Shown: positions 34,480 through 48,199 of the stretch, piece after piece
Layout of the letters: every line of letters starts with the position of its first letter
Numbering within the stretch: position 1 is the first letter of the stretch
Origin: an uncultured Veillonellaceae bacterium
Lineage (GTDB): Bacteria > Bacillota > Negativicutes > Veillonellales > Negativicoccaceae
Assembly (NCBI GenBank): GCA_945876385.1
Contig: CAMCNU010000003.1
Span: 62,001 to 126,000, forward strand
Direction: 5' to 3'
Length of the DNA stretch: 64,000 nucleotides
Notes under the pieces: model-generated
Seen by the model: only the letters and a program-made list of their open reading frames with translations
Told to the model about the DNA's origin: nothing
Database searches by the model: none
Position numbers and translations under genes: made by a program

Positions 34480-36651
34480 TCAGAAGTTGAATTTCGCCGA
34501 TACGACGAAGGTGCGCGGCCAGGAGAGACCGAAGGTCGTCGAGCCGCCGCGGCCCATCCAGTAGCTCTTGTCAAAGAGGTTGTAAACCATCGCATGGACT
34601 TCGACCGGCTGTTCGCCGACGGTCGTGCGCCAGTTCGCGCCCAAGTCTACCGTCGTGTAGCTCGGCAAGGTGCCGCCGTTATCATTAATCTTCGTGCTGC
34701 CGTTGTACATCAGGCGACCGATGATATCGACATTGTCCGACGCTTCATAGGTCAGCCCCAGCACCGCCGAGAAGTCGGCTACGCCGTGGACGTACCAGCC
34801 GTCCCTTGCGCCGTCCTTGGTGCGTTTGCGTTCCGCATCCATCTTCAAGAACCCGCCGGTCACCGTCAAGCGATTGCTGACTTTGCCGTTGACCGTGAAT
34901 TCAAATCCCTTAAATTCATTTTCGCCGTCTTGTTTTTGATTGTACTTTTTCACATCGACCAATTTGCCTTCTTTATCGGCCTCTTTTACCGTGCGTGTGT
35001 ATACGTCGACGGTATTTCCGTCATTCGTACTGAAATACGCCAGTGTGGCCAACCAATTGCCCGCATCATACTTGACGCCGACTTCCTTAATGGTCTGTTT
35101 GACCGGCGGCAATACTTCACCGACATTGTCGTACTTGCTGTTCGTTACCTGACGGCCGCGGGAAATATTTTTCGCATAGCTGCCGTAGATGGAGAGCTGT
35201 TCTGTCGGATGATAGACAAGACCGTACGCCGGCAAGTTGTCGGTCGTTTTGAACTTTTCTTTATTCGTACCGCCTCGATAATCCGCTTTGCGATGCGACC
35301 AGCCGAGCAATACATCGAAATCGCCGATACGCATCATATCGTTGATGACGAGCGAGTCATTGTATTCTTTGTAGTTCAGCGGTCGACCTTGGCTGGCCGG
35401 CAACGGGTAATATCCTTCTTTAAAAATGATACCCTTGTACAAGTTGCCGCCGATTAAGCCTGCCGTAGGCGAGTAGTTTGCTTTATTCCAATACGCCATG
35501 TACGATTTGTCGTACGCAATGACCAATTTGTGTTCGATGTCACCCGTCTTGAAGTCACCGCGGACACCGACCTGCACATAGTTATTCGTCGATTTTTCTT
35601 CTTGGAAATTGGACTTATTCTTGGAAGTAAAATCGCCTTTTTCATCAAAATTCAAGTTGGCACCGTTATTGTACTTGTAGCCGCTCCAGGTCGCCGCGCC
35701 CGTGTTCAGGAACGCCGTCCAGTCGGTCGACAAATCCTGTTCGTGATTGAGCGTCGTCACCCACCAGTGCGCCCACTTGGTTTCTTCCGGGAAATCGTAT
35801 GCCATGCTGTGGTCCGGCACTTTGGGCATGACTTTGCCATCAAAGGTAAACCAGCGTTGCGAGCCGTCGACACGCAGGTCGATATGGCCCGCAAAGAAAT
35901 TCGTCCGGCTGTTGACGCCGCGATGGTCGATATTGAGCCCGATGGTCTTTTCCGTCTTGCCGGAGTAATCCAGAGCGAGCTTACCGTCGAGCCAGCCGGC
36001 CGTCAGACGGGCACCCCACTCGTTATGATCGCCGAAACGTTCGCCGATATCGAGATAGGTACCGATATTTTTCTTGCTCGTGTAATTCAATGTCAACGAG
36101 CGCACCGGTGTATCCGTCGCCCGCTTGGAAATGGCGTTGACCATCCCCGGTGCCGCACTTCTGCCGCTATTCGTCCCGTTCGACGAGGCCTGCGTACCGT
36201 TGAGCACCGTCGCCGCGCCGACCGCCATATCCAGCCGTTCAATCATATGGTTCGGGGCGGTGCGGAACTGCGAAAAGAGACTCGGCACGCCGTTGAAATA
36301 CATATGGGTCCCGTTCATATTGACCCCGCGCACGGAAAAGTCCGAGTACATCGGCGACGAGCTCGATGACCGTACGGCCGGGATATTCACCAATACCTGC
36401 TGCAACGGCAAGGCCGGCGTCGCATAATCATTGATTGCCTTTTCCGTCACACTTACCTGCGTAAACGGTACATCCATGACATCCGCCGTACCGAGCAAGC
36501 CGACACGCGAATTTTCATAGACATAGCCGCCCGCCTGCACATCCCGCTCCGCCGTCACAAATACGGGGTCGAGGGTCTGCAGATCCACCGCCGACGCAGC
36601 GCCCGGCGCCGCCAGCGCCGCCGCTACGACCAGCCACAAATAGTTTTTCAT
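34480..36651 (-). CDS. TonB-dependent siderophore-type receptor, first gene of the import operon
   Basis: 723 residues: signal peptide (about 1-20, ending AASAVD), a plug with VGLLGTADVMDVPFTQVSVT and DFSVRGVNMNGTHMYFNGVP, barrel ending FVVSAKFNF. The start MKNYLWLVVA at 36651 follows AAAGGAGTG. The open frame upstream runs through the leader RNA and is not coding. First of ten genes reading to 22762 with gaps of 64 bp or less between all except the terminal region. Expression is probably set by the attenuator-like leader at 36671-36770. Confidence 0.92.
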   Translation of the reverse strand: MKNYLWLVVAAALAAPGAASAVDLQTLDPVFVTAERDVQAGGYVYENSRVGLLGTADVMDVPFTQVSVTEKAINDYATPALPLQQVLVNIPAVRSSSSSPMYSDFSVRGVNMNGTHMYFNGVPSLFSQFRTAPNHMIERLDMAVGAATVLNGTQASSNGTNSGRSAAPGMVNAISKRATDTPVRSLTLNYTSKKNIGTYLDIGERFGDHNEWGARLTAGWLDGKLALDYSGKTEKTIGLNIDHRGVNSRTNFFAGHIDLRVDGSQRWFTFDGKVMPKVPDHSMAYDFPEETKWAHWWVTTLNHEQDLSTDWTAFLNTGAATWSGYKYNNGANLNFDEKGDFTSKNKSNFQEEKSTNNYVQVGVRGDFKTGDIEHKLVIAYDKSYMAYWNKANYSPTAGLIGGNLYKGIIFKEGYYPLPASQGRPLNYKEYNDSLVINDMMRIGDFDVLLGWSHRKADYRGGTNKEKFKTTDNLPAYGLVYHPTEQLSIYGSYAKNISRGRQVTNSKYDNVGEVLPPVKQTIKEVGVKYDAGNWLATLAYFSTNDGNTVDVYTRTVKEADKEGKLVDVKKYNQKQDGENEFKGFEFTVNGKVSNRLTVTGGFLKMDAERKRTKDGARDGWYVHGVADFSAVLGLTYEASDNVDIIGRLMYNGSTKINDNGGTLPSYTTVDLGANWRTTVGEQPVEVHAMVYNLFDKSYWMGRGGSTTFGLSWPRTFVVSAKFNF

Positions 36652-36670
36652 TGTACCACTCCTTTGAACT

Positions 36671-36705
36671 AAAAAACAAACTATACCATCGTGGCAGTAT
36701 TGTTT
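36671..36705 (-). terminator. Terminator-like hairpin in the TonB-operon leader
   Basis: Reading leftward, AAACAATACTGCCA, loop CGA, TGGTATAGTTTGTTT with two small bulges, followed by more T residues; it ends 5 bp before the AAAGGAG ribosome site. Position and form are those of a transcription attenuator. Confidence 0.6.
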
Positions 36706-36710
36706 CTGCA

Positions 36711-36770
36711 GGAGCGGTGATTTCCCTGTGTGTGTTTCCTCGTTTCCACAACACCTGTCGCCACGGCTCC
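36711..36770 (-). promoter_or_regulatory. Candidate structured 5' leader (possible riboswitch or attenuator)
   Basis: On the transcript, GGAGC (36770-36766) pairs with GCTCC (36715-36711), and directly inside the 3' arm CACC pairs with GGTG (36755-36752), with a 10-nt bulge on the 5' side. An alternative GTGTT/AACAC pairing exists within. It is followed by the terminator-like hairpin. I could not fit it to the cobalamin, NiCo, THF, TPP or FMN consensus. Confidence 0.4.
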
Positions 36771-36813
36771 GTTTATTATGTGAAATAATAATCAGATTCA
36801 ATACGCCAGTTTG

Positions 36814-36843
36814 ATTATAATTGTTTTTTCATACAATAGTCAA
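36814..36843 (-). promoter_or_regulatory. Promoter of the TonB/ABC import operon
   Basis: Reading leftward: TTGACT (36843-36838), 18-bp spacer, perfect TATAAT (36819-36814). The transcript would have a leader of about 155 nt. AT-rich imperfect palindromes just downstream (TGAAATAATAATCA on the plus strand at 36781) could bind a Fur-type protein, but the match is poor. Confidence 0.65.
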
Positions 36844-43361: not shown

Positions 43362-43454
43362 ACTATCACAATTTAGAAACGTTTTCGGATAAACGTTTAA
43401 TTCATTTGTGCAAACATTCATGTGAAAACGATTTATTTCAGGAGGAGTACTATC

Positions 43455-44855
43455 ATGAAACATCAACGCAAACAACTCAAAATCGCGGCCGCACTCATCG
43501 GCCTGTCCGTATTCGGCGCAGCGCATGCCGATGCATTTACTGTCGATGAGGCTATCAACATTGCCAATGCCGCCCAACAAAATTCCGTTCAAGCGAAAAA
43601 TGATGCGGCGAATGCTAAACAAATTGCCAACGCTGCCAAAGGCGAAGCCGGAGCGGCGAAAGCGTCCGCACAAGCAGCCGGACAAACCGCCAACGCCGCG
43701 CAAGAAACCGCCACCCGTGCGGAAACAAAAGCCAACAATCTGGAAAATCAAGTCTCGACCGCTACGGAAACGGCACGGCAAGCCGCCACATCCGCGCAAC
43801 AGGCCAATGATAAAATCGCAGCGGTAGAAGGAAAAGCCGATGCTGCCTCAGAGCAGGCGACTACCGCGTACAATAAAGCGGAAGAAGCGGTCGCGACCGC
43901 CGCGGACAAAGTCAGCAAGACCGAAATGGGGAACACCCTGCGCCAAATCAAGCAGGAGCGCGAGCAGGCACTGGGCGAAATCCGCCAAGCGGCCACCGAG
44001 CAGGACCGCAGCCTGAAAGAAAAAATCGATGCCAACAAGCAATCGATTGAGCAAACAAAAACCGAATTGCAACAGTCGATTGACCGATCTGCGGAAGCAG
44101 CGCGCACGGCGATTCAAGAGCTCCGCAATGCCGGTGCAGATGCCGCACAATTGCGCAAGGAAATCAAAGATAATACGAGCATGATTGAGTCAAATACCCG
44201 CAGCATTGCCGCCAATGAAAACGACATTGACGCCAACAAGGCCGCCATCGCCGCCAACACCAAGGGTATCGCCACGAACAAAGCCGCCATCGACACCAAC
44301 ACGAAGGGTATTGCCGCCAATAAAACCGCGATTGACACCAATACCAAGGGTATCGCCGCGAACAAAACTGCCATTGACACCAACACCAAGGGTATCGCCG
44401 CGAACAAAGCGGAGATCGGCGCGCTGTCACAACGTATCGGCAGCATGCGCGATGACATGCATCGCATGGGTGCGCTGAACGCCGCGCTGTCCGGCCTCAA
44501 GCCGATGCAATTCGACCCGATGGCACCGACCCAGGTCATGGGCGCGGTCGGCACGTACGAAGGCAAACAGGGTTACGCACTGGGCGTGGCACACTATGCC
44601 AAAGAAAGCCTGATGGTCCATGCGGGTGTGGCCTATGACGGCGACGACAAGCTCATGGGGCATGTCGGCATCACCGCCAAGATCGGCAGCGGCGCTGACC
44701 GCAACGTACCGGCACGCTACCAAGCCGGCCCGATTTCCTCCATCTATGTCATGCAGCAGGAAAACGACGCATTGCGCCGCCAAGTCGCCGAAATGCAGCA
44801 GGCGATGGACCGGATGCAGGCCCAACTGCAAGCCTTGGCCGAACGGGCGAAATAA
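43455..44855 (+). CDS. YadA-type trimeric autotransporter with C-terminal coiled coil
   Basis: Surface adhesin, 466 residues. Signal peptide (about 1-25, ending AAHADA), then a long Ala/Gln/Lys-rich coiled-coil stalk (NAANAAQ, AKNDAANAK-like heptads) and a stretch of 14-residue repeats (TNTKGIAANKTAID). The YadA anchor with four short strands follows (GTYEGKQGYALGVAHYA, HAGVAYDGDD, MGHVGITAKIG). Unusually, about 50 residues come after the last strand: AGPISSIYVMQQ, then a heptad coil to the end. The same arrangement is seen at 63344. The start at 43455 follows AGGAGGAG. Confidence 0.92.
   Translation: MKHQRKQLKIAAALIGLSVFGAAHADAFTVDEAINIANAAQQNSVQAKNDAANAKQIANAAKGEAGAAKASAQAAGQTANAAQETATRAETKANNLENQVSTATETARQAATSAQQANDKIAAVEGKADAASEQATTAYNKAEEAVATAADKVSKTEMGNTLRQIKQEREQALGEIRQAATEQDRSLKEKIDANKQSIEQTKTELQQSIDRSAEAARTAIQELRNAGADAAQLRKEIKDNTSMIESNTRSIAANENDIDANKAAIAANTKGIATNKAAIDTNTKGIAANKTAIDTNTKGIAANKTAIDTNTKGIAANKAEIGALSQRIGSMRDDMHRMGALNAALSGLKPMQFDPMAPTQVMGAVGTYEGKQGYALGVAHYAKESLMVHAGVAYDGDDKLMGHVGITAKIGSGADRNVPARYQAGPISSIYVMQQENDALRRQVAEMQQAMDRMQAQLQALAERAK
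44208..44420 (+). repeat. 42-bp tandem repeats in the autotransporter stalk
   Basis: About five copies of a 42-nt unit encoding T-N-T-K-G-I-A-A-N-K-x-A-I-D; the third to fifth copies are almost identical in DNA, so copy number may vary by slippage without breaking the frame. Confidence 0.85.
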
Positions 44856-47905: not shown

Positions 47906-48199
47906 AAAAAAGCCCTTCGTCGTATCCATATCTGTCGATATGGGGACGAAAGGTTACCTTCCGCGGTGCCACCCCGCTTGACCCCGTACGGGATCCTCCT
48001 CTACGTACGGCCGAAGCGATACGCGCTTTTTTGATAACGGTGAAAGACACCGACGACGCCTACCCCGCTCGCGCGGATCGGATCGTATCTCACGGACCCA
48101 TTCCCCTCACCGTCCGGCATCGGGCTCACACCTGCCCCGACTCGCTTTGGCCATTCGCATTGAGGATACTCTTTCCGTTCATCGATGATGATTGTAATT
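47906..48199 (-). ncRNA. T-box riboswitch, probable tRNA-Trp specifier
   Basis: The antiterminator core GCGGGGTGGCACCGCGG (47977-47961) is the conserved T-box. The 5' stem I contains AAAGAGTA and the distal-loop GGTGTGAGCCC; its 3' side has GGGGAATGGGTCC, where the codon after GAA is TGG (48100-48098), followed by a purine as usual. The terminator hairpin 47953-47906 (CCTTTCGTC/GACGAAGG with an inner CCATATC/GATATGG) ends in TTTTT. Uncharged tRNA-Trp should bind and switch on the fused ECF transporter. Confidence 0.93.

Follow-up and report, generated by a model that had tools for sequence, protein, structure and literature searches.

The question raised by the minus strand of the 64-kb window (i.e., the whole stretch of DNA that was analysed) is which RNA heads its TonB-receptor operon and what this RNA responds to. 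The operon encodes two TonB receptors, two SBP_bac_5 binding proteins, two permeases, two ATPases, a methyltransferase-like protein, and a third receptor (the first two receptors, the binding proteins, and the permeases were assigned via Pfam, the remaining genes were judged from their translations). Between the promoter and the ATG of the first receptor gene lies a leader of about 155 nt (Table 1), which the initial annotation had read as a transcriptional riboswitch of no known class, with a metal or a metallophore as its suspected ligand. An upstream TTG start (36801), whose frame is open through the leader, was rejected in favor of the signal-peptide-like start at 36651 with its Shine–Dalgarno (SD) sequence.

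Table 1. Features of the operon leader and its first gene, in window positions
Feature	Position	Strand	Basis or remark
Sigma-70-type promoter, TTGACT-18-TATAAT	36814..36843	minus	11/12 consensus positions, near-consensus
Transcription start	~36807	minus	inferred from promoter
P1 5' strand UGGCGUAUUG (UGGC-g-UAUUG), inferred transcript 5' end	36799..36808	minus	duplex with 36692-36702
P2 hairpin/palindrome TTATTAT-TTCAC-ATAATAA	36773..36791	minus	RNA stem, or DNA operator
Lower stem 5' strand GGAGC	36766..36770	minus	fold; equivalent helix covaries in 18 ompM leaders
Core hairpin GUG-GAAACGAGGAAA-CAC, 12-nt loop 36746-36735	36732..36749	minus	models, loop counts, apical covariation, Cyano-1 loop
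Lower stem 3' strand CACCGCUCCU, also anti-SD	36710..36719	minus	window -16.9 kcal/mol, z -3.5, rank 0.01
P1 3' strand CAAUACUGCCA (CAAUA-cu-GCCA), overlaps 5' arm of terminator-like hairpin	36692..36702	minus	duplex energy
Terminator-like hairpin with T-run TTTGTTTTTT (36680-36671)	36671..36706	minus	-8.6 kcal/mol; weak, A+U-rich
Shine-Dalgarno region AAAGGAGTGGT	36655..36665	minus	minimum-energy fold pairs region with 36710-36718
SD AAAGGAG	36665-36659	minus	sequence
TonB-dependent outer-membrane receptor, operon gene 1, ATG 36651	34480..36651	minus	Pfam TonB_dep_Rec_b-barrel and Plug

The stem GGAGC (36770–36766)/GCTCC (36715–36711), the CACC strand, and the unpaired purine-rich loop described by the initial annotation were all recovered, as was the hairpin that ends in the T-run next to the ribosome site. 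Terminator-like as this hairpin is in form, its A+U-rich stem is weak, and a terminator pattern scan of the window leader gave no match. Two parts had been overlooked: the apical GUG/CAC hairpin with its 12-nt loop, which is the part conserved in the class and lies about 95 nt before the receptor ATG, and the complementarity of CACCGCUCCU to the ribosome site. In agreement with the view that no known class matched, an Rfam scan of the window leader found no family at threshold, cobalamin or other riboswitches included; elsewhere in the window, a T-box leader (RF00230, 102 bits) was detected at 47939–48191 on the minus strand. Scanning the window for Fur boxes yielded none near the promoter and counts at chance. 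Searches with the leader DNA returned the self match and chance-level fragments in its own genome, genus, and family and nothing in a plasmid collection, and a one-mismatch pattern search gave mostly noise at background level. The fold energies were only weakly better than those of shuffled sequences (full leader, z −1.6; core, z −1.8) and unremarkable by themselves; the window sequence was thus insufficient on its own, and significance could come only from relatives.

The closest relative of the operon was found in genome G001 (receptor 80% identical), where the leader folds strongly (z −4.5) into a junction closed by a 5'-terminal P1; this P1 analogue at the 5' end (L018) has an energy of −22.6 kcal/mol (p 0.0002), and a near-palindrome stands at the place matching P2. 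Orthologous operons in other families mostly carry at their head a cobalamin riboswitch (RF00174), an element of different sequence and structure, and lack this hairpin, which speaks against metallophore sensing by it; the operon has therefore come under different controls in different lineages. An RNA common to the metallophore-type operon orthologues of the class was considered and rejected, as the exact loop occurred only in the window, G001, and G058 (about 20 loci plus the window). The cobalamin riboswitches heading the TonB/opp-type operon in several families (L081–L095) suggest that cobalt or a corrinoid is relevant to its substrate. By eye, an TTGACTTTATAGCgnCTATA dyad resembling a MerR-type operator was noted before the first gene (a methyltransferase) of the G104 and G110 operons (L089, L098), possibly with a divergent MerR-like gene beside it. 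Near-palindromes around AATGATTTC adjoin the promoters of two TonB loci, the G001 operon (L018, ~2847–2870) and a further TonB gene in the window genome (G000:C8; L022, ~300–330), and are possible candidates for metal-repressor operators.

The operons of the window, G001, and G058 share a common hairpin with the loop GAAACRMGGAMA. A model built from these three TonB leaders (R1) was searched in 380 genomes and gave further matches, many of them directly upstream of ompM-type SLH-porin genes. The ompM genes of the order were then gathered by protein homology alone, and their upstream DNA was inspected (84 distinct leaders, many from related paralogues). The motif GGAAACNNGG was present in 67 of these leaders, 70–126 nt ahead of the start codon (0.4 expected by background), and was found 0 times on the reverse strand of the same 84; the remaining 17 leaders lacked it. 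Three of the four ompM leaders examined in the window genome carry the motif. The ompM leaders of family f3 (L184–L200) show a 13-nt loop with a nearly invariant ACUCGCC on its 3' side. Within the window, the loop motif GGAAACNNGGA occurs once only, in the TonB leader; the window also encodes a coiled-coil protein whose C-terminus is YadA-like in look (43422–44855, plus strand). Viral contigs contained 3 and 13 exact matches to the loop patterns, given here as raw counts.

That the same hairpin heads porin genes without a link to metals tells against the proposed metal or metallophore sensor of this operon. A transcriptional riboswitch specific to the operon, for a metal, a metallophore, or cobalamin, would agree with the multi-branched leader, with the mutual exclusion of P1 and the terminator-like hairpin, and with the frequent control of orthologous operons by cobalamin riboswitches. 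It is nevertheless very unlikely given the general porins headed by the same hairpin, the lack of a cobalamin or other Rfam match in the leader of a genome that has five RF00174 elements (all outside this leader), and the fact that P1 and P2 are so far known from two sequences.

Members of the family were defined here by a 12-nt loop GAAACNNGGANA closed by at least three pairs, located in the 5' UTR of an outer-membrane-protein gene approximately 50–130 nt before its start; the window hairpin has this loop, stem, and 5'-UTR position. Model R2, searched in 13 genomes, gave 45 matches with E < 0.05, and all those with a checked downstream gene precede outer-membrane-protein genes (for a few matches in ompM clusters, e.g., G005:C1:65424, the next gene was not translated individually). 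The downstream genes were ompM, plain beta-barrel porins in G139, and TonB receptors in the window, G001, and G058. Among the weaker R2 matches were one at a further TonB receptor of G001 (E 0.06), one at a further ompM (E 0.2), and apparent chance matches; a weak hairpin match (E 0.11) was also seen upstream of an acid-phosphatase-like gene (L136, G321). The window hairpin scored 30.0 bits with R2, in whose training set it was included. A held-out model (R3) was built from ompM leaders only, with the window never in training: its best match in the 64-kb window was this hairpin (E 0.013), and it recovered the G001 TonB leader (E 0.009 in ~308 kb) and the plain porins of G139 (E 2e-5 to 2e-3), all E-values being rough for such short models. 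The R3 search did not detect the TonB element of G058. The modest R3 score of the window is explained by its stem, which is GUG/CAC, whereas nearly all ompM leaders have GAG/CUC. The window hairpin very probably belongs to a family of outer-membrane-protein leaders in Negativicutes.

Conservation and covariation in relatives, whose absence the initial annotation had named as a refutation, were both present. In 18 ungapped leaders of one ompM family, the lower helix was 69.7% paired, versus 58.4% in shuffled and at most 46% in slid sequences, and 16 pairs were altered on both sides; pair 9-57 occurred as CG7/UA5/AU4. The TonB leaders are few, each with a lower helix of its own, and the lower-helix covariation was seen in the ompM leaders. 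In the apical stem, the pairs were GC25/AU4/CG2/UA1 and AU23/UA9 with no broken cell, while the outermost pair of the alignment (A6) was unpaired in 13 of 32 sequences. The lower-helix test is the cleaner of the two because some rows of the apical alignment came from the structure-based R1 search, which favors pairing. When the leaders were folded freely, the hairpin formed in 58 of 79; under constraint, the mean energy was −13.4 kcal/mol versus −8.0 kcal/mol for shuffled flanks. Across the family, the three apical pairs alternate between GAG/CUC, GUG/CAC, AUG/CAU, CUG/CAG, and UUG/CAA around a nearly constant loop. Since 5'-proximal stem-loops can slow decay and porins are abundant, as is textbook knowledge, the hairpin could merely stabilize highly expressed mRNAs without a dedicated regulator; such a role needs no conserved loop, yet in this family it is the stems that vary and the loop that stays constant, which makes such a role highly improbable.

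The conserved core resembles a known RNA outside the class. Cyano-1 (RF01701), i.e., Yfr2, likewise has a 12-nt loop (GUG-GAAACAAGGAAA-CAC), a long stem, and a bulge at −4; the window core is identical to its consensus in 17 of 18 letters, differing at one loop position, and has a U bulge at −4 in the fold. Yfr2 has been described with this loop, the long stem, the bulge at −4, and RsmA-like GGA motifs (PMC2662882), and its loop as containing a GGAAACA repeat (PMC1242208). A search of 15 Negativicutes genomes with the Cyano-1 model placed all 15 matches with E ≤ 0.5 at outer-membrane-protein leaders (one lies in an ompM cluster whose genes were not translated one by one). The best ompM leaders reached 36.5 and 36.6 bits (E ~1e-4), the G001 leader 28.5, and the window 18.4 bits, all below the gathering threshold of Cyano-1 (41 bits). 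Yfr2 is an independent sRNA whose 5' motif is conserved and unpaired, whereas the Negativicutes elements are 5' UTRs of outer-membrane-protein genes; the window element, unlike Yfr2, belongs to an operon leader that has an SD and an ATG of its own, and in the favored prefix fold the 5' part of the element is predicted to be paired. The likeness of the loops may reflect common descent or convergence. CsrA/RsmA-binding hairpins likewise present GGA motifs in a 5'-UTR hairpin loop, a resemblance already noted for Yfr2 (PMC2662882), and the 12-nt loop here holds two GGA blocks. A CsrA/RsmA-type site is nonetheless hardly tenable, as CsrA (PF02599) was not found in the element-bearing genomes G000–G003, G058, G104, and G119; with the gene absent from the window genome, CsrA was excluded as its loop-binding factor.

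A second published RNA bears on the ompM leaders. The SLH motif of Stav et al. (2019) is a structured RNA reported, with 80 examples, ahead of genes for SLH-domain proteins in Synergistaceae, Clostridia, and Negativicutes and proposed as a riboswitch candidate without a known ligand (PMC6429828). The present family also precedes SLH-domain genes in Negativicutes, whereas the window gene is a TonB receptor without SLH; TonB receptors, plain porins, the Yfr2 loop, and an SD-pairing strand go unmentioned in the text consulted (PMC6429828). The SLH motif and this hairpin family may be the same class, and the family is therefore not called categorically new. In the literature searched, TonB receptors and plain porins were not found as further targets, nor was the sharing of the Yfr2 loop or a strand that pairs with the SD.

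How the hairpin might act is suggested by the alternative folds of the leader. CACCGCUCCU and the ribosome site AGGAGUGGU are complementary, and in the minimum-energy fold of the full leader the former pairs with the SD around the terminator-like hairpin, whereas a transcript ending at the T-run favors the P1-closed element fold instead. The P1 duplex (36808–36799 with 36702–36692; −12.2 kcal/mol, shuffle p 0.0074) lends modest support to the upstream antiterminator that had been proposed, and in the predicted folds of the window leader P1 and the terminator-like hairpin are mutually exclusive. In G001, the 3' strand of P1 (GCAUCUUC) has a pairing partner in GAAGAUGC, which lies between the SD and the ATG; this 8-mer was picked after the fact (unbiased test rank 0.095). 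CU-rich strands easily pair with SD sequences. Complementarity of the 3' flank to the SD was at shuffle rank ≤ 0.05 in 25 of 76 leaders (~4 expected, the leaders not being independent), with a mean z of −1.31 versus −0.47 for the 5' flank; it was not significant in most Veillonella-like leaders. These predictions favor a two-state leader, with the element folded and the SD open or the element opened and the SD closed. As the 3' strand of the element can, with this statistical support, probably switch to pairing with the ribosome site, the folded element would leave the mRNA translatable and the alternative fold would close it. Because the alternative fold of the window leader includes the terminator-like hairpin, early termination is possibly part of the control. 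Of the proposed riboswitch layout, a conserved cis-regulatory RNA with predicted exclusive folds extending to the terminator-like hairpin and the ribosome site is supported; the operon-specific metal or metallophore aptamer is not.

The balance between the two folds would be shifted by a putative trans-acting factor that recognizes the loop GAAACNNGGANA. Alternatively, all outer-membrane-protein leaders could have in common a small-molecule riboswitch, with c-di-GMP or a cell-wall signal as examples of its ligand: a conserved loop with an alternative SD-pairing strand is a riboswitch-like layout, and the SLH motif was put forward as a riboswitch candidate (PMC6429828). Such a shared riboswitch is unlikely, however, as the conserved part is a single 12-nt hairpin loop, small for an aptamer, and the same loop occurs in free-standing Yfr2 sRNAs (PMC2662882). 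The loop could instead be the kissing-loop site of an antisense sRNA, like Yfr1 on the cyanobacterial porins; sRNA control of porins is common, and Yfr1 targets those of Prochlorococcus (PMC6778093). A perfect antisense sRNA fits poorly because the middle two loop positions (6 and 7) vary freely among the paralogues of one genome, and this reading is accordingly quite unlikely. The preferred factor is an RNA-binding protein that would read the two GGA blocks and set the translation and the stability of outer-membrane-protein mRNAs together. The full mechanism, factor and two-state leader combined, is at best somewhat more probable than not.

Judged from the sequences compared, a 5'-UTR hairpin family appears to mark outer-membrane-protein mRNAs across the Negativicutes, namely those of ompM/SLH porins, plain porins, and some TonB receptors. 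The hairpin common to the porin leaders, together with the loop of the cyanobacterial sRNA, points to one shared putative regulator of outer-membrane proteins and not to an operon-specific metal sensor. Cyanobacterial SLH-porins are related to the Negativicutes ones. An ancestral diderm system, in which a conserved protein reads the GAAACNNGGAAA hairpin both in Negativicutes porin and TonB-receptor mRNAs and in cyanobacterial Yfr2 sRNAs, can be put forward only tentatively. No reported partner of the Yfr2 loop was found in the literature searched, and what binds the loop is a question shared by both fields. In diderm Firmicutes, OmpM is the principal porin as well as the principal tether (PMC10628300), and no account of the control of its synthesis was found in the literature searched. 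Shared among ompM, further porins, and TonB receptors, such a hairpin would define an RNA-level outer-membrane-protein regulon, and the ancestral system, if true, would mean global post-transcriptional control of outer-membrane proteins that is independent of sRNA pairing and CsrA.
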